From Swaminathania salitolerans (GTDB lineage Bacteria > Pseudomonadota > Alphaproteobacteria > Acetobacterales > Acetobacteraceae): a DNA stretch of 64,000 nucleotides. Below are positions 19,754 to 34,430 of the stretch, piece by piece. Each line of letters begins with the position of its first letter. The stretch's first letter is position 1. Both the position numbers and the translations under genes were made by a program. Under the pieces are notes generated by a model. The model was not told where the DNA came from and searched no databases. It was given only the letters and a program-made list of their open reading frames with translations. The stretch is from positions 1-64,000 of the forward strand of contig NZ_BJVC01000008.1 in the NCBI RefSeq assembly GCF_007988945.1, given 5' to 3'.

Positions 19754-19829
19754 TGGTGCCCAAGGGCGGAATCGAACCACCGACACTGCGATTTTCAGTC
19801 GCATGCTCTACCAACTGAGCTACTTGGGC
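19754..19829 (-). tRNA. tRNA-Phe (GAA)
   Basis: The 76-nt cloverleaf has the CCA end encoded (19754-19756). The acceptor stem is GCCCAAG/CTTGGGC. The D arm contains AGCTCAGTTGGTAGAGC and the T arm contains GGTTCGATTCC. The anticodon loop is CTGAAAA, giving anticodon GAA. It lies 28 bp after yacG, an arrangement common in alphaproteobacteria. Confidence 0.97.
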
Positions 19830-25419: not shown

Positions 25420-28400
25420 TTACGGGTTCTCCTGCGCAAGCACCATGATCGTCTGCCCTGCCCTGGCCAGCCCGCCGGGCGCAACACGCACGGCGCGTAT
25501 CGTCCCGGCGGCAGGAGACTGGACCGCGATCTCGATCTTCATGGATTCGAGCATCGCAACGGTCTGACCGGCGGAGACGGTTTCGCCTTCCGAAACCAGA
25601 ACCTGCCAGACATTGCCCGCGATGCTGCTCTCTATGGCGATTTCGCCCTCGTCGAGCGGCCTGTCATCCTCCGTAGAAAGCACGGCGTCCCCGCTCTCGA
25701 AGCGGTCGAGACCTGCTTCGATCCAGTAGCGGCGTTCTGCCTCGAACGCTTCGGCCTGATGTGCACGGAACGTCGCGATTTCGGAGCGGTTCCGATCGAG
25801 GAACGCCTCATATTCCGACAGGGAGAGCGTGCCCTCCTCGATGCGCGGTGCGTAACGGCCTAAAGGGAAATCCCGCCGGATTACCTCGAGTTCCCCGGTG
25901 GAGACAGGGAAGAAGCGCAACTGGTCGAAAAAACGGAGCAGCCACGGCTTGCCGCCGAAAGCGTCGGGCAGCCGGTAGCGTACCCACATCTGAAGCGTCC
26001 GGCCGATGAACTGGTATCCGCCCGGCCCCTCCATGCCGTAGACGCACAGATAGGCGCCGCCGATCCCGACCGAGTTCTCGGCCGTCCATGTGCGGGCCGG
26101 ATTGTATTTCGTCGTGACCAGACGATGGCGCGGATCGAGCGGGGTTGCGACAGGGGCGCCAAGATAGACATCCCCGAGGCCCATGACGAGGTATCGTGCA
26201 TCGAAAACGAGGTCCTGAACGGCTTTTGTCGTCTGGAGTCCGTTGATGCGGCGAATGAACTCGATATTGCTCGGGCACCATGGGGCATTGGGGCGCACCG
26301 TGGTTGCGTATTTCTCGATGGCGAGCCGACAGGCCGGGTCGTCCCAGGAGAGCGGGAGATGGACGGTGCGCGACTGCACCCTGATATCGCGGTTTTCCGT
26401 TACGTCGCGCCACAGGGTCGAGAGATACGAGAGCAATGAGGGGAGCGGCAATTTTTCCGGAACATAGTGGATTTGCAGGGACCGGATGCCGGGGGTGAGA
26501 TCGATGACACCGGCAGGACAGTCGTGTTCGAAGGCCTGCATGAGCGCGTGGACACGAAAGCGCAGCGCGATATCGAGGGTGGCTTCCCCGATCTCGACGA
26601 GAAGCGCAGTGTCGCCTGCCAGACGGGCAACGAGACCTAATGCACCTTCACCGAGGGAGAGAACGACGGGGCTTTGCGGCCGGACGGGCGCCCAGGGCAC
26701 GACCCGTGGCGACAGGGTGGCGATTTCAGCATTCTGCGCGAGGGAGAGGCGCCGGGCGGTTTCGAGATCGACGGGCACGAACCGGAGGCGGTCGCCTGCG
26801 CGGAGCTGGCCCAGCTGCCACAGATCGGCCTCGATGATCGTGACGAGACAGACAAACCCCCCGAGACTGGGACCGTCCGGCCCGAGAATGACAGGCATGT
26901 CTCCGGTGAAGTCCACCGCACCTATGGCATAGGGATTGTCGTGAATGTTCGAGGGATGAAGTCCCGCCTCGCCGCCGCTGTCACGCACCCATTCGGGACG
27001 TGGCCCGATCAGGCGGATTCCGGTTCGGTTCGAATTGAAATGAACCTCCCATTCGGCAGCGAGAAAGGTCTCGACATAGGCAGGGGTGAAATATTCGGGC
27101 GCGCCGTGCGGACCGTAGATCACACGCAGAATGCGTGTTGCGCCGGTTTCGTCCTGAGGGACAGGATACAGCTCCGGCGCGAGCGATGCGCCTTCGACCG
27201 GAACGGGCGACCGGTCCGGAGATCCGAGATGCAGAACGTCTCCCGCCCGTATCGCGCGCCCGGCATGGCCGCCGAACTGCCCGAGGGTGAAGGTGGCGCG
27301 GCTGCCCAGATAGGCCGGAACCGCAAGACCTCCATGGAGGCAGAGCATTGCCCGCGTACCCTTGCGCGCCGTGCCGAGGGTCAGGGTTTCTCCCGCACCG
27401 ATCCGCAATACCGTTCCCATCGCGCAGGGGCGGTTGTCGATGGAAACTGGAATATCCGCCCCGGTCACGACGGCCAGCGTCTCGCGCGTGAAACGCAGTA
27501 TCGGTCCGCTCATCGTGATCTCGAGACCGGGGGTCTCCGGAGGATTGCCGAGGAGTGCGTTGCCGAGCCGGAAAGCGCGACTATCCATGGGGCCCGAGGG
27601 CGGTACGCCGACATTCCAGTAGCCGAGACGCCCGGGATAATCCTGGATCGTCGTCTGTGTGCCTCCTGAAATCACGTCGATGCGTGCCGTCTCGAAGGCG
27701 AGCGTCTCGAGGCAGCGCGTCCAGGGCGCCCCTGTCAGGAATGGCTCGAAGGCCAGGATCTGCCGCAGATAGGTCCGGTTCGTTTCCGTGCCGTACAGGC
27801 GTGTGGCTGCCAGTGCATCGTCGAGCCGTGCGATTGCTGCTTCCCGAGAGGGGGCATGGGCGATGAATTTCGCCACCATGGGATCGAAGAAGGGGGAGAT
27901 CTCGACGCCCGCTTCGAGCCAGCCATCGATCCTGAGGCTGCCTTTATCGGATGGCGGGAAAGCGACTTCGGTCAGCAGGCCGGGTGCTGGCTGGAAATTC
28001 TTGCCCGGATCCTCTGCGTAAAGTCGCGCCTCGATCGCATGGCCGGAGGGTTTCAGCCCCGAGGCGAGCTGTTCCAGAGGGGGGAGCGTTCCCGCCTCCA
28101 GCTCGATCATCCAGCGCACCAGATCGACACCCCAGACCTCTTCGGTTACGCCGTGCTCGACCTGGAGGCGGGTGTTCACCTCGAGGAAATACCAGCCCCT
28201 CGTGATGCTGTCATAGACGAATTCCACAGTGCCGGCGTTGCGATAAGATACCGCCCTGCCAAGCCGGATGGCTGCATCGCACAAGGCGTCGGCGAGACCG
28301 TCCGGCAGGCCCGGGGCCGGTGTTTCCTCGATGACCTTCTGATTGCGTCGCTGCACCGAGCAGTCACGCACGCCCAGCGAAATCACGCCTCCACGGCCAT

Positions 28401-29049
28401 CGCCGAAAATCTGCACTTCGAGATGGCGCGCGCGCTCGATGAATTTCTCGACGAAGACGCCCGCATCGCCGAAATTATTGCTGCCGAGCTGACGGACGGT
28501 CTCGAAAATCCCGGTCAGTTCCGTCTCGTCGCGGCAGATACGCATGCCTATTCCGCCGCCGCCAGCCGTGCTTTTGAGCATGACGGGATAGCCGGTCCGT
28601 GACGCTGCCGCACAGGCTTCCTCGACCGAGGAAAGCAATGGAGACCCTTCCAGAAGAGGGACGTCCTGCGATGCGGCGAGAGCGCGGGCCTCATGTTTGA
28701 GGCCGAAGGCGCGCAGATGATCCGGCTCGGGCCCTATGAAAATCATGCCCGCATCGGCGCAGGCCTGCGCGAATGCGGCATTCTCCGAGAGGAAGCCATA
28801 ACCGGGGTGAATTGCCGAAGCGCCGGTTTCCCGGGCGATTGCGATGATGCGTTCGGCCTGCAGGTAGGTCTGTGCGGCACTGCCTTCGCCCAGGCAGATA
28901 GCGATATCCGCCTCGCGGACATGGCGGCTCGCGACATCGGCTTCAGCATAGATGGCGACGGGAGAAATGCCCATCTGACGCAGCGTACGGATGATCCGGC
29001 AGGCAATTGCGCCGCGATTGGCAATCAGTATGCGATCGAATATCGGCAT
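25420..29049 (-). CDS. Biotin-dependent guanidine (urea-type) carboxylase
   Basis: This family carboxylates urea or guanidine with ATP and bicarbonate. The 1209-residue protein holds, in order, a biotin carboxylase (about 1-450, with KSTAGGGGIGM and the catalytic EVNTRLQVEHGVTE), a KipA/AHS2-like domain (about 475-790, starting TTIQDYPGRLGYWNVG), a KipI/AHS1-like domain (about 800-1010) and a C-terminal biotinyl domain with MLESMKIEI. Databases would usually say urea carboxylase. The guanidine-I riboswitch on its leader and the DUF1989 pair and allophanate hydrolase across the intergenic region favour guanidine; the product would be carboxyguanidine. The ATG at 29049 gives the canonical MPIFDRILIANRG start. 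An in-frame ATG at 29106 abuts the aptamer and would add 19 residues. Confidence 0.9.
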   Translation of the reverse strand: MPIFDRILIANRGAIACRIIRTLRQMGISPVAIYAEADVASRHVREADIAICLGEGSAAQTYLQAERIIAIARETGASAIHPGYGFLSENAAFAQACADAGMIFIGPEPDHLRAFGLKHEARALAASQDVPLLEGSPLLSSVEEACAAASRTGYPVMLKSTAGGGGIGMRICRDETELTGIFETVRQLGSNNFGDAGVFVEKFIERARHLEVQIFGDGRGGVISLGVRDCSVQRRNQKVIEETPAPGLPDGLADALCDAAIRLGRAVSYRNAGTVEFVYDSITRGWYFLEVNTRLQVEHGVTEEVWGVDLVRWMIELEAGTLPPLEQLASGLKPSGHAIEARLYAEDPGKNFQPAPGLLTEVAFPPSDKGSLRIDGWLEAGVEISPFFDPMVAKFIAHAPSREAAIARLDDALAATRLYGTETNRTYLRQILAFEPFLTGAPWTRCLETLAFETARIDVISGGTQTTIQDYPGRLGYWNVGVPPSGPMDSRAFRLGNALLGNPPETPGLEITMSGPILRFTRETLAVVTGADIPVSIDNRPCAMGTVLRIGAGETLTLGTARKGTRAMLCLHGGLAVPAYLGSRATFTLGQFGGHAGRAIRAGDVLHLGSPDRSPVPVEGASLAPELYPVPQDETGATRILRVIYGPHGAPEYFTPAYVETFLAAEWEVHFNSNRTGIRLIGPRPEWVRDSGGEAGLHPSNIHDNPYAIGAVDFTGDMPVILGPDGPSLGGFVCLVTIIEADLWQLGQLRAGDRLRFVPVDLETARRLSLAQNAEIATLSPRVVPWAPVRPQSPVVLSLGEGALGLVARLAGDTALLVEIGEATLDIALRFRVHALMQAFEHDCPAGVIDLTPGIRSLQIHYVPEKLPLPSLLSYLSTLWRDVTENRDIRVQSRTVHLPLSWDDPACRLAIEKYATTVRPNAPWCPSNIEFIRRINGLQTTKAVQDLVFDARYLVMGLGDVYLGAPVATPLDPRHRLVTTKYNPARTWTAENSVGIGGAYLCVYGMEGPGGYQFIGRTLQMWVRYRLPDAFGGKPWLLRFFDQLRFFPVSTGELEVIRRDFPLGRYAPRIEEGTLSLSEYEAFLDRNRSEIATFRAHQAEAFEAERRYWIEAGLDRFESGDAVLSTEDDRPLDEGEIAIESSIAGNVWQVLVSEGETVSAGQTVAMLESMKIEIAVQSPAAGTIRAVRVAPGGLARAGQTIMVLAQENP

Positions 29050-29104
29050 GGGATATCTTGCTCCGAGAGTGCGCACAAGCAGCCGTCCTCTCGAACGGTG
29101 CAAC

Positions 29105-29210
29105 ATGTTCTCCCGGGCTTTTGTCCCGCCGTGTAACCCCGCTTGCGCAAGGCCGCCCGCTCTCGGACCAGCCAGCCGATCCGTCGGATCGAATGCGGAA
29201 CCCTAGCGCG
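29105..29210 (-). ncRNA. Guanidine-I (ykkC) riboswitch in the carboxylase leader
   Basis: On the minus strand the conserved blocks appear in family order: CTAGGGTTCCG (from 29206), a GATCCG-ac-(C)GGATC type stem, CTGGTCCGAGAG, a CTTGCGCAAG stem, and ACACGGCGGGACAAAAGC followed by CCGGGAGA ending at 29109. These are the diagnostic blocks of the guanidine-I aptamer. The carboxylase ATG follows 60 nt later. Downstream, CGAGAG (29093-29088) can pair with CTCTCG (29069-29064), which touches the GGAG ribosome binding site. Alternatively the aptamer's CCGGGAG can pair with CTCTCGG. This points to translational control. Confidence 0.9.
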
Positions 29211-29243
29211 CCAGATGTCGACTTTCATGACGATGCGTATGGT

Positions 29244-29249
29244 CGTCAA
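29244..29249 (-). promoter_or_regulatory. Possible -35 element for the carboxylase transcript
   Basis: TTGACG on the minus strand lies about 40 bp upstream of the aptamer core. A weak GAAAGT follows at 17-bp spacing (29226-29221), which would start transcription just before the riboswitch. The -10 match is poor. Confidence 0.3.
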
Positions 29250-29310
29250 GAGCGCAGATTGTTTTATCGGAACGTAACGAACATATATCGTTTCGCTTGA
29301 ACAATTTTAA

Positions 29311-29339
29311 TTGCACCTTCCTTTCCGATGACGTTATGA
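29311..29339 (+). promoter_or_regulatory. Probable promoter for the permease/guanidine operon
   Basis: TTGCAC (29311-29316) and TTATGA (29334-29339) are separated by 17 bp. The predicted transcription start is near 29346, directly at the 5' edge of the rightward aptamer. The region between the two aptamers (29211-29345) is unusually AT-rich for this genome, consistent with back-to-back promoters. Confidence 0.45.
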
Positions 29340-29348
29340 AAAACAGGA

Positions 29349-29452
29349 AGCAGCTAGGGTTCCGATTCGGTCTTTGCCGAATGACTGGTCCGAGAGCGCG
29401 CGGCCTTGCCATATGCAAGGTTACACGGCGGGACAAAAGCCCGGGAGATATC
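29349..29452 (+). ncRNA. Guanidine-I (ykkC) riboswitch in the permease leader
   Basis: The conserved blocks are in order: CTAGGGTTCCG (from 29354), the stem ATTCGG-6-CCGAAT (29365-29382), CTGGTCCGAGAG, the stem CCTTGC-5-GCAAGG (29404-29420), ACACGGCGGGACAAAAGC and CCGGGAGA ending at 29448. It is strongly similar, block for block, to the minus-strand copy 150 bp away. Guanidine binding is expected to switch on the downstream permease, DUF1989 and allophanate hydrolase genes. Confidence 0.93.
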
Positions 29453-29459
29453 TGATGCC

Positions 29460-29504
29460 GGAAATGGCGTCGCATATCTCCTGCGAGATGCGTGCGTCAT
29501 TTCC
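29460..29504 (+). promoter_or_regulatory. Expression platform hairpin of the permease riboswitch
   Basis: Outer arms GGAAATG (29460-29466) and CATTTCC (29498-29504) enclose an inner stem, GCAT-AT-CTC (29472-29480) with GAGATGC (29485-29491). ATATCTCC (29474-29481) is also perfectly complementary to GGAGATAT (29444-29451) at the 3' edge of the aptamer, so the two folds exclude each other. No T-run follows, which favours control of translation. CATTTCC could otherwise pair with the downstream GGGAAGGA ribosome binding site. Confidence 0.5.
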
Positions 29505-29527
29505 AACCGACTTGATTCGGGAAGGAT

Positions 29528-29629
29528 ATGACGATGAAACGGCGCAAGATCTCGGTTACGACCGATACGGTTGCTGACACCTCTTTCGGAGCGATGCTCC
29601 CTTTCCCGCTCCCGATTCCGGCAGCATGA
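29528..29629 (+). CDS. 33-residue leader ORF overlapping the permease start
   Basis: A short frame starts with ATG at 29528, directly after a strong GGGAAGGA ribosome binding site. It reads MTMKRRKISVTTD and ends PLPIPAA. Its TGA overlaps the permease ATG (ATGA at 29626-29629). The permease has no strong ribosome binding site of its own, so coupled translation through this ORF is plausible. The peptide has a basic start and a proline-rich end and resembles nothing I know. A second overlapping frame (29454-29577, 40 residues) also starts just after the aptamer. Neither is proven to be translated. Confidence 0.45.
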   Translation: MTMKRRKISVTTDTVADTSFGAMLPFPLPIPAA

Positions 29630-31182
29630 TCGCCGACGATATACGCGTGAAGACGCGTCATCCCGCAGGACGACAGAAGGTCGCGTCCACCTCGCTGAAG
29701 GATGAGGAGCGTCTCGCGCTTTTCGGCTATCAGCAGGAGCTGCGCCGGGATCTCGGTCCTTTCGCCTCCTTCGCTGCGGGATTTTCCTTCGTTTCCGTCC
29801 TCACGACGGTTTTCGAGATGTTCCCTCTCGGATACGGGTTCGGAGGACCCGTCTTTTTCTGGACGTGGCCGCTGGTCTTTTTCGGCCAGTTCTGCGTCGC
29901 GCTGTGCTTTGCCGAGCTGGCCGCGCGTTTTCCCGTAGCCGGGGCGATCTATCAATGGTCGACGCGTCTCGCATCCCCCGGCATCGGCTGGATGGCGGGC
30001 TGGCTCACGCTGATCGGTTATATCGTCAGTGTGTCTGCGATCGCGATTGCCATGCAGTCGATTTTGCCGAGCTTGTGGGACGGTTTTCAGCTCGTCGGCG
30101 GCAGTGCGGACATCACCACCCTGACAGGTGCGGAAAACGCGATCATTCTCGGTACGCTCACCATCCTGACGAGTACTCTGATTTCCTGCATAGGCGTGCG
30201 GATTTCCGCTTTCGTCACCGTTGCGGGCGTCTATGCCGAGATGCTGGGGCTCTGTCTTCTGATCGCAGCGCTTTTCATGAATATACGGCGGGGCTTTTCG
30301 GTGACGATGGATATGACCCATCTCTCACCCGGCATGACGCCGCACGGCGCGTTTCTCGCTTCCATGCTCATGGCCGTATATGTGATGTACGGGTTCGACA
30401 GTGCGGCGGAGCTTTCGGAAGAAACGCGCCGGCCCGATCTCGTTGCGCCCAAGGCGATCGTGCGGTGTCTGCTCCTCTCTTTCGTGGCAGGCGGGCTCGT
30501 GATTCTCGGGACATTGATGGCAGCACCCTCGCTCGGCTCCGGTGAGCTCGCGACGATCGGTATCCCCTATGTCATTCACGCGATCACATCGGGCGTCACC
30601 GGTCATATCCTTCTGGCGACCGTAGCCATTTCGGTCTTTTCCGCAACGATCGCCATCCAGACCTCTGCCTCGCGTGTCCTGTTCTCCATGTCGCGGGACG
30701 GGGTCATACCGGGATGCAGGCGCCTGGGCGGAATCTCGTCGCGGACCGGAACGCCGATCACGGCCACGATCGTGGTCGGCATCCTGAGCATAGGGTTTCT
30801 CTGGGTCAATTTCGGGGATGCGTCCCTTTTCAGTGCGATCACCGCATCTGCCGTTACTGTGACCTATCTTGCTTATCTGATGGTGACCCTCCCGCTCCTG
30901 GTCCGGCGCGTGCAATGGCTGCGCGGCGGAAGCCCGAGCTATGGCTTCAGGGTGAAGGGACGCACATGGCGCGCGGGCGTCAATATCGTCGCCGTCGTGA
31001 GCGGGGCGGCCTTTTTCATCAATACGCTCTGGCCACGCATGGCCGTGTTCGATCCCTCCGGAGAGCGTCCCGGCATGGTGGCGTTTCCGGTTGTCTTTCT
31101 CGGTGCTGCGCTCGGGCTGGGACTGATTCTCCGGAAGATCCGGTCTGCTCGCCGGGATCATTTTTCTCACAAGGAACTCTGA
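29626..31182 (+). CDS. APC-superfamily permease, probable guanidine (or guanidine-compound) transporter
   Basis: This is an integral membrane transporter of the amino acid-polyamine-organocation superfamily, 518 residues and about twelve helices. A soluble N-terminal stretch of about 45 residues includes LKDEERLALFGYQQELRRDLG, a pattern common at the start of APC permeases. The helix 1 substrate region reads FASFAAGFSFVSVLT, and later VYVMYGFDSAAELSEETRRP is typical of the family. It is the first large gene downstream of the guanidine-I riboswitch and sits in one operon with the DUF1989 and allophanate hydrolase genes. The context, not the protein, suggests guanidine as substrate. Confidence 0.85.
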   Translation: MIADDIRVKTRHPAGRQKVASTSLKDEERLALFGYQQELRRDLGPFASFAAGFSFVSVLTTVFEMFPLGYGFGGPVFFWTWPLVFFGQFCVALCFAELAARFPVAGAIYQWSTRLASPGIGWMAGWLTLIGYIVSVSAIAIAMQSILPSLWDGFQLVGGSADITTLTGAENAIILGTLTILTSTLISCIGVRISAFVTVAGVYAEMLGLCLLIAALFMNIRRGFSVTMDMTHLSPGMTPHGAFLASMLMAVYVMYGFDSAAELSEETRRPDLVAPKAIVRCLLLSFVAGGLVILGTLMAAPSLGSGELATIGIPYVIHAITSGVTGHILLATVAISVFSATIAIQTSASRVLFSMSRDGVIPGCRRLGGISSRTGTPITATIVVGILSIGFLWVNFGDASLFSAITASAVTVTYLAYLMVTLPLLVRRVQWLRGGSPSYGFRVKGRTWRAGVNIVAVVSGAAFFINTLWPRMAVFDPSGERPGMVAFPVVFLGAALGLGLILRKIRSARRDHFSHKEL

Positions 31183-31183
31183 C

Positions 31184-31921
31184 GTGATCAAATCTGCGCA
31201 GATACCCTCCACCGCTGCGGTTCTCTACCGGGAGACGATCCCGGGAGGCGGACACCGATCTCTCGTCGTCAAGGCGGGATGGCAATTGCGGCTGACTGCG
31301 TGCGACAGAAACGCCAATCTGGCACTGGTCGCGTTCAATGCCGCTCTGACAAGCGAAAGACTGAACCTTCCCGATACGCTCAAGGCCCAGCATACGGCCT
31401 TTCTCACGAAGGGACATTGCCTTCACTCCGATATGGGGCGCGTCCTGCTTGCGATTACCGAGGATCGCTGCGGCTGGCATGACTGTTTCGGAGGCGTTCT
31501 CAATGCGGTCGAGACGGAAGAGAAATACGGCTCCGGGCGGTTTCAGGATCTGCGAAACGCCTTCTTTCGCAACGGTTACGATAATCTGCTTGTCGAACTC
31601 GGGAAATGGGATCTCGACGCACGGGACATTCCGATGGTCGTCAATCTCTTCAGCAAGGTGGCGGTCGGGTCCGGGGGCGTGCTTCGTTTTGTCCCCGATC
31701 ATGCGCAGCCGGGTCAGGATGTGGTGCTTCACGCGCTGATGGATACGCTCGTCGTCATGACGGCCGTACCGCACCCGATGGATCCGTCCCCGTCCTACAC
31801 ACCCGGTTCCGTCTCATTCGCCATCGAGGACGCATCGGATCCCGCCGCTCTGGACGCCTGTCGCCGGTCCTGCGGGGAAAACGAACGCGCCTTTCGCAAC
31901 ACCGAAATTTTCTGTCTGTAA
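31184..31921 (+). CDS. DUF1989 protein (urea carboxylase-associated type 1), probable carboxyguanidine deiminase subunit
   Basis: This is one of two DUF1989 proteins formerly called urea carboxylase- or urea amidolyase-associated. Pairs of them have been shown to form a carboxyguanidine deiminase (CgdAB) that converts carboxyguanidine to allophanate and ammonia. The 245-residue product shows SDMGRVLLAITEDRCGWHDCFGG-type metal-site residues (the Cys and His in RCGWHD) and NLFSKVAVG. It starts at a GTG (31184) two bases after the permease stop, with AAGGA upstream. Which Cgd subunit it is cannot be decided here. Confidence 0.85.
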   Translation: MIKSAQIPSTAAVLYRETIPGGGHRSLVVKAGWQLRLTACDRNANLALVAFNAALTSERLNLPDTLKAQHTAFLTKGHCLHSDMGRVLLAITEDRCGWHDCFGGVLNAVETEEKYGSGRFQDLRNAFFRNGYDNLLVELGKWDLDARDIPMVVNLFSKVAVGSGGVLRFVPDHAQPGQDVVLHALMDTLVVMTAVPHPMDPSPSYTPGSVSFAIEDASDPAALDACRRSCGENERAFRNTEIFCL

Positions 31922-31934
31922 GGGAGTACGCCGG

Positions 31935-32582
31935 ATGACCATGAGCGCGAGCCAACGCGATCCCGTCAATGCCGTGTTTCGCCATGTTATCGGTGCGGGA
32001 GAGCCGGGAATTTTCGACGTGAAGAAGGGGCAGACGCTGCGCCTTCTGGATCTGGAAGGTAACCAGGCGGTCGATACGCTTTTCTACAATGCACGCAATA
32101 TCCGTGAACGGTACGACGCGCAGCGCACCATCCGTCGGCAGAATGCCTTGTTCCTGACGACAGGTACGGTGCTGTATTCCAGTCTCGGGCACCCGATGGC
32201 GACGATCACTGCCGATACCTGCGGTCGGCACGATACGCTCGGCGGGGCCTGTGCGCAGGAAAGCAACACCACACGTTATGCGGCCGACCGGTTTCATATG
32301 CATGCGTGCCGCACGAACTTCCTTTGCAGCTGCCTCAATGACGGGCGGTTGACCAAGCGCGATCTGACCGCGAACGTGAATTTCTTCATGAACGTTCCCG
32401 TCGAGCCGGATGGCTCGCTGGTCTTTGCTGATGGCGTGTCGGCACCGCTCAAATATGTGGAAATGCGCGCGGAGATCGATCTGATCGTCGTCATTTCCAA
32501 TTGTCCACAGCTGAACAATCCCTGCAATGCCTGGAATCCGACACCCACGGAGGTCATCGTCTGGGACGATACGGCAGCCTGA
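31935..32582 (+). CDS. DUF1989 protein (urea carboxylase-associated type 2), probable carboxyguanidine deiminase subunit
   Basis: This is the second DUF1989 protein of the pair, 215 residues. It begins with a beta-rich fold (GEPGIFDVKKGQTLRLLDL, then GNQAVDTLFYNA). Probable metal ligands lie in TCGRHDTLGG and FHMHACRTNFL. The C-terminal NCPQLNNPCN motif is typical of the family. GGGAG precedes its ATG, 13 bp after the first DUF1989 gene. Together the two are expected to deiminate carboxyguanidine, the product of the divergent carboxylase, in the cytoplasm. Confidence 0.87.
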   Translation: MTMSASQRDPVNAVFRHVIGAGEPGIFDVKKGQTLRLLDLEGNQAVDTLFYNARNIRERYDAQRTIRRQNALFLTTGTVLYSSLGHPMATITADTCGRHDTLGGACAQESNTTRYAADRFHMHACRTNFLCSCLNDGRLTKRDLTANVNFFMNVPVEPDGSLVFADGVSAPLKYVEMRAEIDLIVVISNCPQLNNPCNAWNPTPTEVIVWDDTAA

Positions 32583-32615: not shown

Positions 32616-34430
32616 ATGAAGATGATCGAATTGCCGCGACTCGACCTCCAGACCCTGCATGCCGCCTATCGCGACGGCGCTTTTACGCCTCGGATCCTGA
32701 TCGATGCCTTGCGCGATCGGGCCATGGCGCTTAACGACTATTATCGCGCCTTTATCCATATTCTGGATCCGTCGGAACTCGAGCCGGTCCTGCACCGTCT
32801 CGAGCGTGGGACGATGGACGACTTTCCGCTCTACGGTGTACCGTTTGCGATAAAGGACAATATCGATCTGGCGGGGGTGCCCACGACGGCAGCCTGTCCG
32901 GCTTTCGCCTATACGTCCGACAGATCGGCGACCGTCGTGGAGCGGCTTCTGATGCTTGGCGCCGTTCCCGTCGCGAAAACCAATCTCGACCAGTTCGCCA
33001 CCGGACTCAGCGGCACACGGTCCCCCTACGGAATCTGTCGCAACGCTGTGTCCGACCGGCATCCTTCCGGCGGATCGAGCTCCGGCTCTGCCGTCTCTGT
33101 CGCTCTCGGGCTCGCAAGTTTCGCCCTTGGCACGGATACTGCCGGTAGCGGACGCATTCCGGCCGCCTACAACAACCTCGTCGGTCTCAAGGCGAGTTGC
33201 GGACTGATTTCGACCCGGGGTGTCGTCCCCGCCTGCCGTAGCCTCGATTGTACGACCCTCCTGACCGCATCGGCAGGGGAGGCCAGTCATCTGCTCGCGC
33301 TTCTGGCGCAGTACGACCCGCTGGATGACTATAGCCGCCGTAATCCGCAATGGAACGGGGCCGCAGGGTTCGGCACGGTATCGGCCGGTTTCCGCTTCGG
33401 CGTGCCCGAAGGGGCAGAATTCGCGGGATGCGTCGAAAGTCCGGCGCTTTTCGCGCAGGCGGTTTCGCGCCTCGAGGCAATGGGAGGCATCGCCGTTTCC
33501 GTCGATCTCTCGGCTTTTCTGGAGGCGGCACGGCTGCTTTACGAAGGCCCCTGGGTTGCCGAGCGTCATCTCGTGGTCGAGGCGCTTCTCGCGCGAGAGC
33601 CGCAGGCGATCTTGCCCGTCATTCGCGATGTGCTGGCGAAAGCGCCCGACTATGCGGCGACGGACGTGTTTTCCGCTTTCTACAGGCTTCGCAAACTCAA
33701 ACGCCGGTGCGATGCCATCCTCGATAATCTGTCTTTTCTGCTGACGCCGACCATGCCGAGGCCGGTGACTCTCGCCGAACTCGAGGCGCAGCCGGTTGCG
33801 GCGAATTCCCTGCTCGGGACCTACACGAATTTCGTCAATCTCCTCGATTACGCGGCGGTGGCCGTACCGTCGGCCTTCATGACCGATGGCCTGCCCTGGG
33901 GCGTGACGCTCGTCGGCAGGTGTTTTACGGATCAGTATCTTCTCAGCGTTGCGGACGCATTTCAGAGAAAATCGGCGCTGCGACTCGCCTGCGATCGCGG
34001 CCTTCCGGGCGCGCCGCCGTCGCGTCCGGTGACTGGAGACCGGATCAGGATCGTCGTTTGTGGCGCCCATCTCGACGGGTTGGCGCTCAACTGGCAATTG
34101 CGTGCACGCGGCGCGTCCCTGATCGAAGCGACGACGACCGCGCCGTGCTACCGGCTTCATGTTCTGGCGGGAGGGGAGCCATTGCGGCCCGGGCTGGAGA
34201 AATGCGCTGAGGGAGGCGCAGCCATTGCCGTGGAGGTATGGGAGATGCCTCAGGTCGAACTCGGTTCGTTTCTCGCCCAGATTCCCGAGCCTCTCGGGCT
34301 CGGCAGGATCGAGCTTGCAGACGGGCGCCGGGAGACGGGGTTTATCTGCGAGGGACTCGCCCTCGCTGCTGCGAAGGACATCACTGCCAGCGGCGGCTGG
34401 CGTGGCTGGCTTCAGGCGCAGGATGTGTGA
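32616..34430 (+). CDS. atzF: Allophanate hydrolase
   Basis: Allophanate hydrolase converts allophanate to two ammonia and two CO2. The 604-residue protein has an N-terminal amidase-signature domain (about 1-450) with the Ser-cisSer-Lys triad: Lys in PFAIKDNIDLAG and serines in HPSGGSSSGSAVSVALG. GTDTAGSGRIPAA is also present. A C-terminal domain (about 465-600) of the type found in AtzF follows; in relatives it decarboxylates the N-carboxycarbamate intermediate. The gene closes the riboswitch-controlled operon, 33 bp after the second DUF1989 gene. The symbol is by family (AtzF/DUR2-like). Confidence 0.92.
   Translation: MKMIELPRLDLQTLHAAYRDGAFTPRILIDALRDRAMALNDYYRAFIHILDPSELEPVLHRLERGTMDDFPLYGVPFAIKDNIDLAGVPTTAACPAFAYTSDRSATVVERLLMLGAVPVAKTNLDQFATGLSGTRSPYGICRNAVSDRHPSGGSSSGSAVSVALGLASFALGTDTAGSGRIPAAYNNLVGLKASCGLISTRGVVPACRSLDCTTLLTASAGEASHLLALLAQYDPLDDYSRRNPQWNGAAGFGTVSAGFRFGVPEGAEFAGCVESPALFAQAVSRLEAMGGIAVSVDLSAFLEAARLLYEGPWVAERHLVVEALLAREPQAILPVIRDVLAKAPDYAATDVFSAFYRLRKLKRRCDAILDNLSFLLTPTMPRPVTLAELEAQPVAANSLLGTYTNFVNLLDYAAVAVPSAFMTDGLPWGVTLVGRCFTDQYLLSVADAFQRKSALRLACDRGLPGAPPSRPVTGDRIRIVVCGAHLDGLALNWQLRARGASLIEATTTAPCYRLHVLAGGEPLRPGLEKCAEGGAAIAVEVWEMPQVELGSFLAQIPEPLGLGRIELADGRRETGFICEGLALAAAKDITASGGWRGWLQAQDV

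Follow-up and report, generated by a model that had tools for sequence, protein, structure and literature searches.

Head-to-head guanidine-I aptamers probably control both halves of the guanidine carboxylase pathway in Swaminathania salitolerans

Results

Guanidine carboxylase genes on both sides of a 576-bp region

The DNA analyzed here, called the window, is a 64,000-nucleotide stretch of Swaminathania salitolerans (contig NZ_BJVC01000008.1, positions 1 to 64,000). Its minus strand encodes a guanidine/urea carboxylase (25420–29049; TIGR02712, 1752 bits, 1209 aa). The plus strand encodes an APC permease (29626–31182; PF13520; TIGR03428 at 530 bits, under its cut-off of 740), the carboxyguanidine deiminase subunits CgdA (31184–31921; UAAP1, TIGR03425) and CgdB (31935–32582; UAAP2, TIGR03424), and an allophanate hydrolase (32616–34430; TIGR02713). 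The next gene, dnaB, is on the opposite strand. In an alignment with urea amidolyase 5i8i, residue D713 of the carboxylase took the place of N1330, and an aspartate at this position may mark guanidine use. TIGR02712, TIGR03425, TIGR03424, and TIGR02713 were all matched above their own cut-offs, indicating a complete guanidine carboxylase gene set. It matches the pathway as given in the excerpt of PMC12186494.

Between position 29049, the likely start of the carboxylase, and position 29626, where the permease begins, lie 576 bp. The original prediction, made from the DNA letters, had both arms fed from one region of 580 bp; the single region was found and its size is corrected to 576 bp. The minus strand has another in-frame ATG (29106), 19 codons ahead of the likely carboxylase start and a few nucleotides past the aptamer tail GGGAGA, which could serve as a Shine-Dalgarno (SD) sequence. 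The Rfam scan of the window also found a tRNA gene (19757–19829, minus strand).

Two divergent guanidine-I aptamers

All 64 kb were searched with cmscan. RF00442 (Guanidine-I) matched the minus strand at 29217–29108 (carboxylase arm; 76.4 bits, E = 8.1e-12) and the plus strand at 29344–29449 (permease arm; 86.6 bits, E = 4.3e-14). Both matches exceeded the gathering score of 63 and spanned model positions 1–107, and they were the only RF00442 matches in the whole 2.92-Mb genome. Two divergent guanidine-I riboswitches had been predicted, with a covariance-model search of both strands as the check, and the search returned such a pair with 126 bp between them. The four conserved blocks ran in order on each outward strand, as described beforehand, and the predicted inverted repeat around an AT-rich region was identical in 90 of 116 alignment columns. 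When the window was dinucleotide-shuffled 100 times, the head-to-head core pattern never occurred. One aptamer was expected to face the carboxylase and the other the permease operon. They do face the TIGR02712 gene (minus) and the permease operon (plus), except that a short open reading frame (ORF; 29528 or 29534 to 29629) precedes the permease.

The ykkC guanidine-I class has relatives with PRPP and ppGpp as ligands (excerpt of PMC6031431), and the aptamers might sense one of these instead of guanidine. We consider this scarcely credible. At 28950–29700, a search with all Rfam models at E up to 5 gave no match to any other riboswitch family, and the sole extra match was to a miRNA, whose 17.9 bits fell short of the cut-off of 70. 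Moreover, guanidine pathway genes face both arms. By match, lack of a rival family, and gene context, both arms were confirmed at the sequence level as guanidine-I aptamers.

Divergent pairs in other genomes

RF00442 matches (E up to 0.001) were found in 10 of 200 genomes of the family, 23 of 299 of the order, 38 of 387 of the class, and 57 of 397 of the phylum; these samples overlap, and the large ones were searched with stricter scoring filters. By hand count in their union, 7 of 114 distinct RF00442-positive genomes had a divergent pair within 1 kb. They were the window genome, an Acidomonas genome (G036), four Gluconobacter genomes (G243, G263, G291, and G368; 4 of 26 in that genus), and G987 from another class. 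The window genome belongs to Acetobacteraceae, as do the Acidomonas and Gluconobacter genomes. The window's own genus was sampled by the window genome alone.

We also scanned 84,980 species for two cores 116–176 bases apart, using exact letters only. Nine stretches were obtained: four from Gluconobacter, one from Acidomonas methanolica, three from Paenibacillus, and one from a Chloracidobacterium MAG. Seven of the nine had two divergent Guanidine-I matches. The stretch from Gluconobacter roseus (L102) had one match and ends within the other arm, and both arms were seen in G263. The Chloracidobacterium stretch (L108) had no RF00442 match and was rejected as a chance core pattern. Eight stretches were thus true pairs, five acetobacterial and three from Paenibacillus. 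This count is a lower bound, as the scan misses variant cores, contigs shorter than 3 kb, and pairs with a larger gap (431 in G987). Eight true tight pairs per 84,980 species, together with the 7 of 114 genomes above, bear out the claim that the layout is uncommon. No divergent guanidine-I pair was found in viral contigs. In L068 (G095), L086 (G577), and L087 (G645), one contig carried two guanidine-I aptamers in the same orientation, separated by 7 to 17 kb.

The carboxylase was divergent from permease–cgdA–cgdB–allophanate hydrolase in all five acetobacterial relatives, with the G368 contig ending inside the carboxylase. The sister genus (G258, G280, and G322) had a single aptamer followed by cgdA–cgdB–carboxylase–allophanate hydrolase. 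In Paenibacillus, one arm led to the deiminase genes and the other to an APC permease; the one such permease compared shared 22% identity with the window permease over 368 positions. The carboxylase lay behind the deiminase genes in L103 and L106, the two Paenibacillus stretches traced to that point; L105 was traced over a shorter distance. In the wider pair of G987, one arm led to deiminase–carboxylase–hydrolase genes and the other to an NMT1-like protein that probably serves an ABC importer as its binding protein.

An AT-rich spacer between the aptamers

The spacer (29218–29343) is 126 bp long with 39.7% GC, compared with 63.6% for the window, and only 0.016% of 126-bp segments sampled every 10 bases were equally AT-rich. 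It presumably holds both divergent promoters. The aptamer 5′ ends were 127–136 apart in the six pair genomes (the window genome, Acidomonas, and the four Gluconobacter genomes). A candidate permease-arm promoter consists of TTGCAC (29311–29316) and TATGAA (29335–29340) with 18 nt between them, on the plus strand. For the carboxylase arm, the candidate −35 element is TTGACG (29244–29249, minus strand), with a weak −10 element; its TTGAC was present in 6/6 pair genomes. The candidate hexamers kept a near-constant distance to the aptamer in 6/6 pair genomes. The window promoters did not exceed shuffles (7/12 for the permease-arm candidate), and a strict promoter scan found none for the permease arm. 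A Magnetospirillum class I aptamer at 119,571–119,680 (minus strand) has a mapped transcription start at 119,678 (excerpt of PMC9549626), and transcription starts at the aptamer edges of the window would fit this precedent.

The permease-arm leader

Three candidate helices were found in the permease-arm leader (plus strand). H1 (29444–29481) would pair the aptamer tail GGAGAUAU (29444–29451) with AUAUCUCC (29474–29481), around an inner hairpin GAUGCC/GGCGUC. H2 (29460–29504) would pair GGAAAUGGCG (29460–29469) with CGUCAUUUCC (29495–29504). H3 (29500–29523) would pair the anti-SD UUUCC (29500–29504) with the SD GGGAA (29519–29523). H2 is incompatible with both H1 and H3. The SD and anti-SD shift jointly, from UUUCC/GGGAA in the window to UCUCC/GGAGA in relatives; H3 counts from MAFFT alignment A2 omit four relatives, in which the SD was set one column off. 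H2 showed no covariation, with 91.7% of cells paired compared with 31.7–60% when slid, and carried an A–C mismatch in 5/6 pair genomes. The permease linker was nearly invariant over three genera, and the spacer was not. By eye, several single leaders of the family showed the same helix order with other letters.

The SD of this arm starts a short ORF (29528–29629, plus strand) of 33 codons from 29528 or 31 from 29534, and did so in 6/6 pair genomes (27–40 codons). The ORF stop and the permease start overlap by 4 nt (ATGA) in the window and G243. In three Gluconobacter genomes, a GTGA overlap was one among several possible permease starts, and in G036 the earliest possible start was 12 nt beyond the first base of the stop codon. 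No SD was seen ahead of the window's permease start. The stop/start overlap and the lack of an SD at the permease start suggest that the leader ORF may be translationally coupled to the permease. Among other leaders, L013, L024, L026, and L027 of the same family have a 13–45-codon ORF whose stop codon shares an ATGA with a possible next start, and in L046, L053, and L060, from another family of the class, a post-aptamer SD starts a 24–25-codon ORF of unlike sequence.

In the Rfam register, the permease-arm P1 stems were the lowest six among 62 distinct aptamers, with 2–3 of 6 pairs. An initial reading of this P1 as broken was dropped: 4–5 pairs (−2.7 to −4.8 kcal/mol) form once a one-nucleotide bulge or a small internal loop is allowed, and the P1 of leader G152 was weaker still (−1.8 kcal/mol). 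The bulged stem, and a P1 3′ strand resembling that of the carboxylase arm, would suit a reading in which one aptamer is functional and the other is a decaying duplication copy. This is very improbable in our view, as both arms exceeded the cut-off in 6/6 genomes of three genera and the permease linker was almost unchanged.

The carboxylase-arm leader

The SD region of the carboxylase arm, CUCUCGGAG (29061–29069, minus strand), is complementary to UCCGAGAG of the aptamer core (29160–29167, minus strand) and to UUCGAGAG of the linker. The candidate SD-side pairing with the core is CUCUCGGA:UCCGAGAG. In the carboxylase arm of relatives, the sequence flanking the SD (CGUGUAACC or nearly so) matches GGUUACACG of the aptamer; the window has CUCUCGGAG in place of CGUGUAACC, matching UCCGAGAG. 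For the window itself, the SD duplexes were not significant with either the aptamer core (p = 0.166) or the linker (p = 0.058).

Carboxylase arms and sister-genus leaders taken together (n = 6) had stronger pairing between aptamer core and SD than other leaders (n = 15; p = 7e-4), a grouping chosen after the sequences had been seen. The prediction of this pairing preceded the duplex calculation but likewise came after the same sequences had been viewed. Linker:SD pairing showed no significant difference between the groups (p = 0.11). For both group tests, seven near copies were removed (both arms of G291 and G368, G322, G366, and G345b). The pair genomes by themselves gave p = 0.057.

Expression platforms compared across leaders

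Duplex tests were run on 28 leaders, a set that leaves out G345a, L003, L007, and L008 (G064, G156, G199). At p < 0.05, they supported tail:linker pairing in 1/28 leaders, linker:SD pairing in 3/28, and aptamer core:SD pairing in 3/28; the window's carboxylase arm was not among them. SD accessibility from RNAfold failed to separate the free, ON, and no-P3 states, being 0.50, 0.50, and 0.50 in the window's permease arm and 0.17, 0.23, and 0.17 in its carboxylase arm. A thermodynamic proof of switching was attempted and failed, ON and OFF being indistinct in RNAfold.

Transcription terminators were also sought. In 6/6 Paenibacillus pair leaders, the aptamer tail lay in a hairpin (−16.2 to −28.1 kcal/mol), and a T tract came immediately after it. 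No T tract was found between aptamer tail and start codon in the 12 acetobacterial pair leaders, the T tract of G368 lying behind the start codon, and none was found within 115 nt of the aptamer tail in G987. This test was used for pair genomes only, the tail being mis-set in at least one single leader (G022). A simple terminator scan returned nothing for the window or L107 and a single borderline site for G243, in its permease linker (1 vs 0.7 in shuffles); it carries little weight either way, since it misses the full Paenibacillus tail hairpins. The terminator-type hairpin formed by the same tail in 6/6 Paenibacillus leaders supports H1 as the ligand-free helix.

Both aptamers could instead be guanidine-I riboswitches that act mainly on transcription, via Rho-dependent termination in the untranslated leader. 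With no intrinsic terminator seen, Rho is left as a candidate, and class I is described as a transcriptional suppressor in the excerpt of PMC11410670. The joint change of SD and anti-SD argues against this mode of control, as does the transcriptional-looking hairpin and T tract found in 6/6 Paenibacillus leaders and before none of the acetobacterial start codons. We regard it as unlikely. From the sequences, we infer that both arms act on translation by different routes. Both platforms are working hypotheses drawn from complementarity, because few single leaders were significant, RNAfold was null, and H2 lacked covariation and carried a mismatch.

Balanced induction of the two arms by one ligand, which had been part of the original prediction, was not borne out: the linkers and apparent expression platforms differ, and the permease arm has a bulged P1 and a leader ORF.

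Mosaic arms

For four lineages, a tree grouping the aptamers by arm was compared with a tree grouping them by genome. The by-arm tree was shorter for the P1 5′ strand (13 vs 28 steps) and for P1b (58 vs 74 steps). For the P1 3′ strand plus P2, the by-genome tree was shorter (27 vs 32 steps). Informative columns favored the genome tree in 5 of 6 cases within the latter tract and in 0 of 17 upstream, a split with a probability of about 2e-4 under independence of columns; the pairing of stem columns weakens this figure. Paenibacillus arms showed no such mosaic.

These patterns suggest that the acetobacterial arms may have exchanged sequence by local gene conversion. Selection, chance, or shared ancestry could also have made the P2 stems of the two arms alike, and we hold this to be a real possibility, if not the probable one. 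The tract is just 28 columns, gaps were scored as a state, stem columns are non-independent, and Paenibacillus arms retain dissimilar P2 stems; the 5 of 6 against 0 of 17 split of informative columns speaks for conversion.

Apparent recurrence of the layout

Mapped on a tree of 34 carboxylases, presence of the pair took three changes, two of them forced by well-supported branches; three changes could equal one gain and two losses. The clade of the window carboxylase and the sister genus joined Paenibacillus and not the other sampled family members, with support of 94/91, just below the mark for firm support. This grouping hints at possible horizontal transfer. The divergent-pair layout is apparently recurrent and uncommon. 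The tree changes, together with the group differences in layout, transporter, and expression platform, argue for repeated origin.

Discussion

Two guanidine-I riboswitches on divergent mRNAs probably induce the two halves of the pathway, acting on translation by different routes. When guanidinium is present, the minus-strand carboxylase mRNA would be switched on, and so would the plus-strand mRNA for the importer, carboxyguanidine deiminase, and allophanate hydrolase. When no ligand is bound, the permease-arm aptamer would pair its 3′ tail with the linker (H1) and block H2, and the free anti-SD would pair with the SD (H3), giving the off state. With ligand, the aptamer would retain its tail, H2 would capture the anti-SD, and the SD would open; the short leader ORF would then be translated and coupled to the permease. 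In the carboxylase arm, the SD would be masked by the aptamer core and released as the aptamer folds. The sequence shared by the arms may derive partly from local gene conversion.

A broader scenario is also conceivable, though we think it rather doubtful. Head-to-head pairs would have evolved repeatedly to serve separate uptake and breakdown mRNAs, and the acetobacterial arms would be gene-converted and differently wired, with the enzyme induced before the importer. If so, carboxylase and importer would switch on at different guanidine levels. The locus offers a natural side-by-side comparison of two aptamer copies with different apparent platforms in one cell and one pathway. It could show if riboswitch pairs set the order of induction and if inverted aptamer copies evolve in concert. 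The parts are real and mostly ordinary, and the layout is apparently uncommon and recurrent.

The aptamers are like RF00442 guanidine-I (ykkC) riboswitches in sequence, structure, and gene context. The window differs in that one intergenic region holds a copy on each strand, apparently with two distinct translational platforms. A tandem riboswitch carries both aptamers on a single RNA ahead of one gene; here the aptamers are on opposite strands. Tandem and contiguous riboswitches (PMC9481103, PMC12452182) likewise place several aptamers in one intergenic region, but they control one gene or operon, whereas the window has two divergent units. Guanidine-I is among the classes not found in tandem in PMC9481103, and T-box plus guanidine tandems are reported for Bacillota in PMC12452182. 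The words 'divergent' and 'opposite' are absent from the main texts of both, and head-to-head pairs would add an architecture to those in the tandem-riboswitch literature examined. In the literature searched, a set that did not include the 2017 discovery paper, no description of a divergent guanidine-I pair was found.

The short leader ORF has a likeness in Mycobacterium tuberculosis, where a B12 riboswitch controls a short ORF before ppe2 and the downstream gene needs translation of that ORF (PMC11260477). That system differs in its ligand and is an OFF switch; coupling in the window is suggested by the overlap alone.

Two-riboswitch control of the guanidine carboxylase pathway is already published (PMC12186494, PMC12508155). 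Raoultella, Erwinia, and Klebsiella have a class I riboswitch and then a class II guanidine riboswitch downstream in the cluster (PMC12186494), and Vreelandella boliviensis has a two-riboswitch guanidine operon with class I and class II (PMC12508155). As proposed for the window, the carboxylase is switched separately from cgdAB and the importer. Those systems combine class I and class II in the same cluster, whereas the window has class I and class I on divergent units. What is new here is this class I plus class I divergent arrangement of an already known two-switch split.
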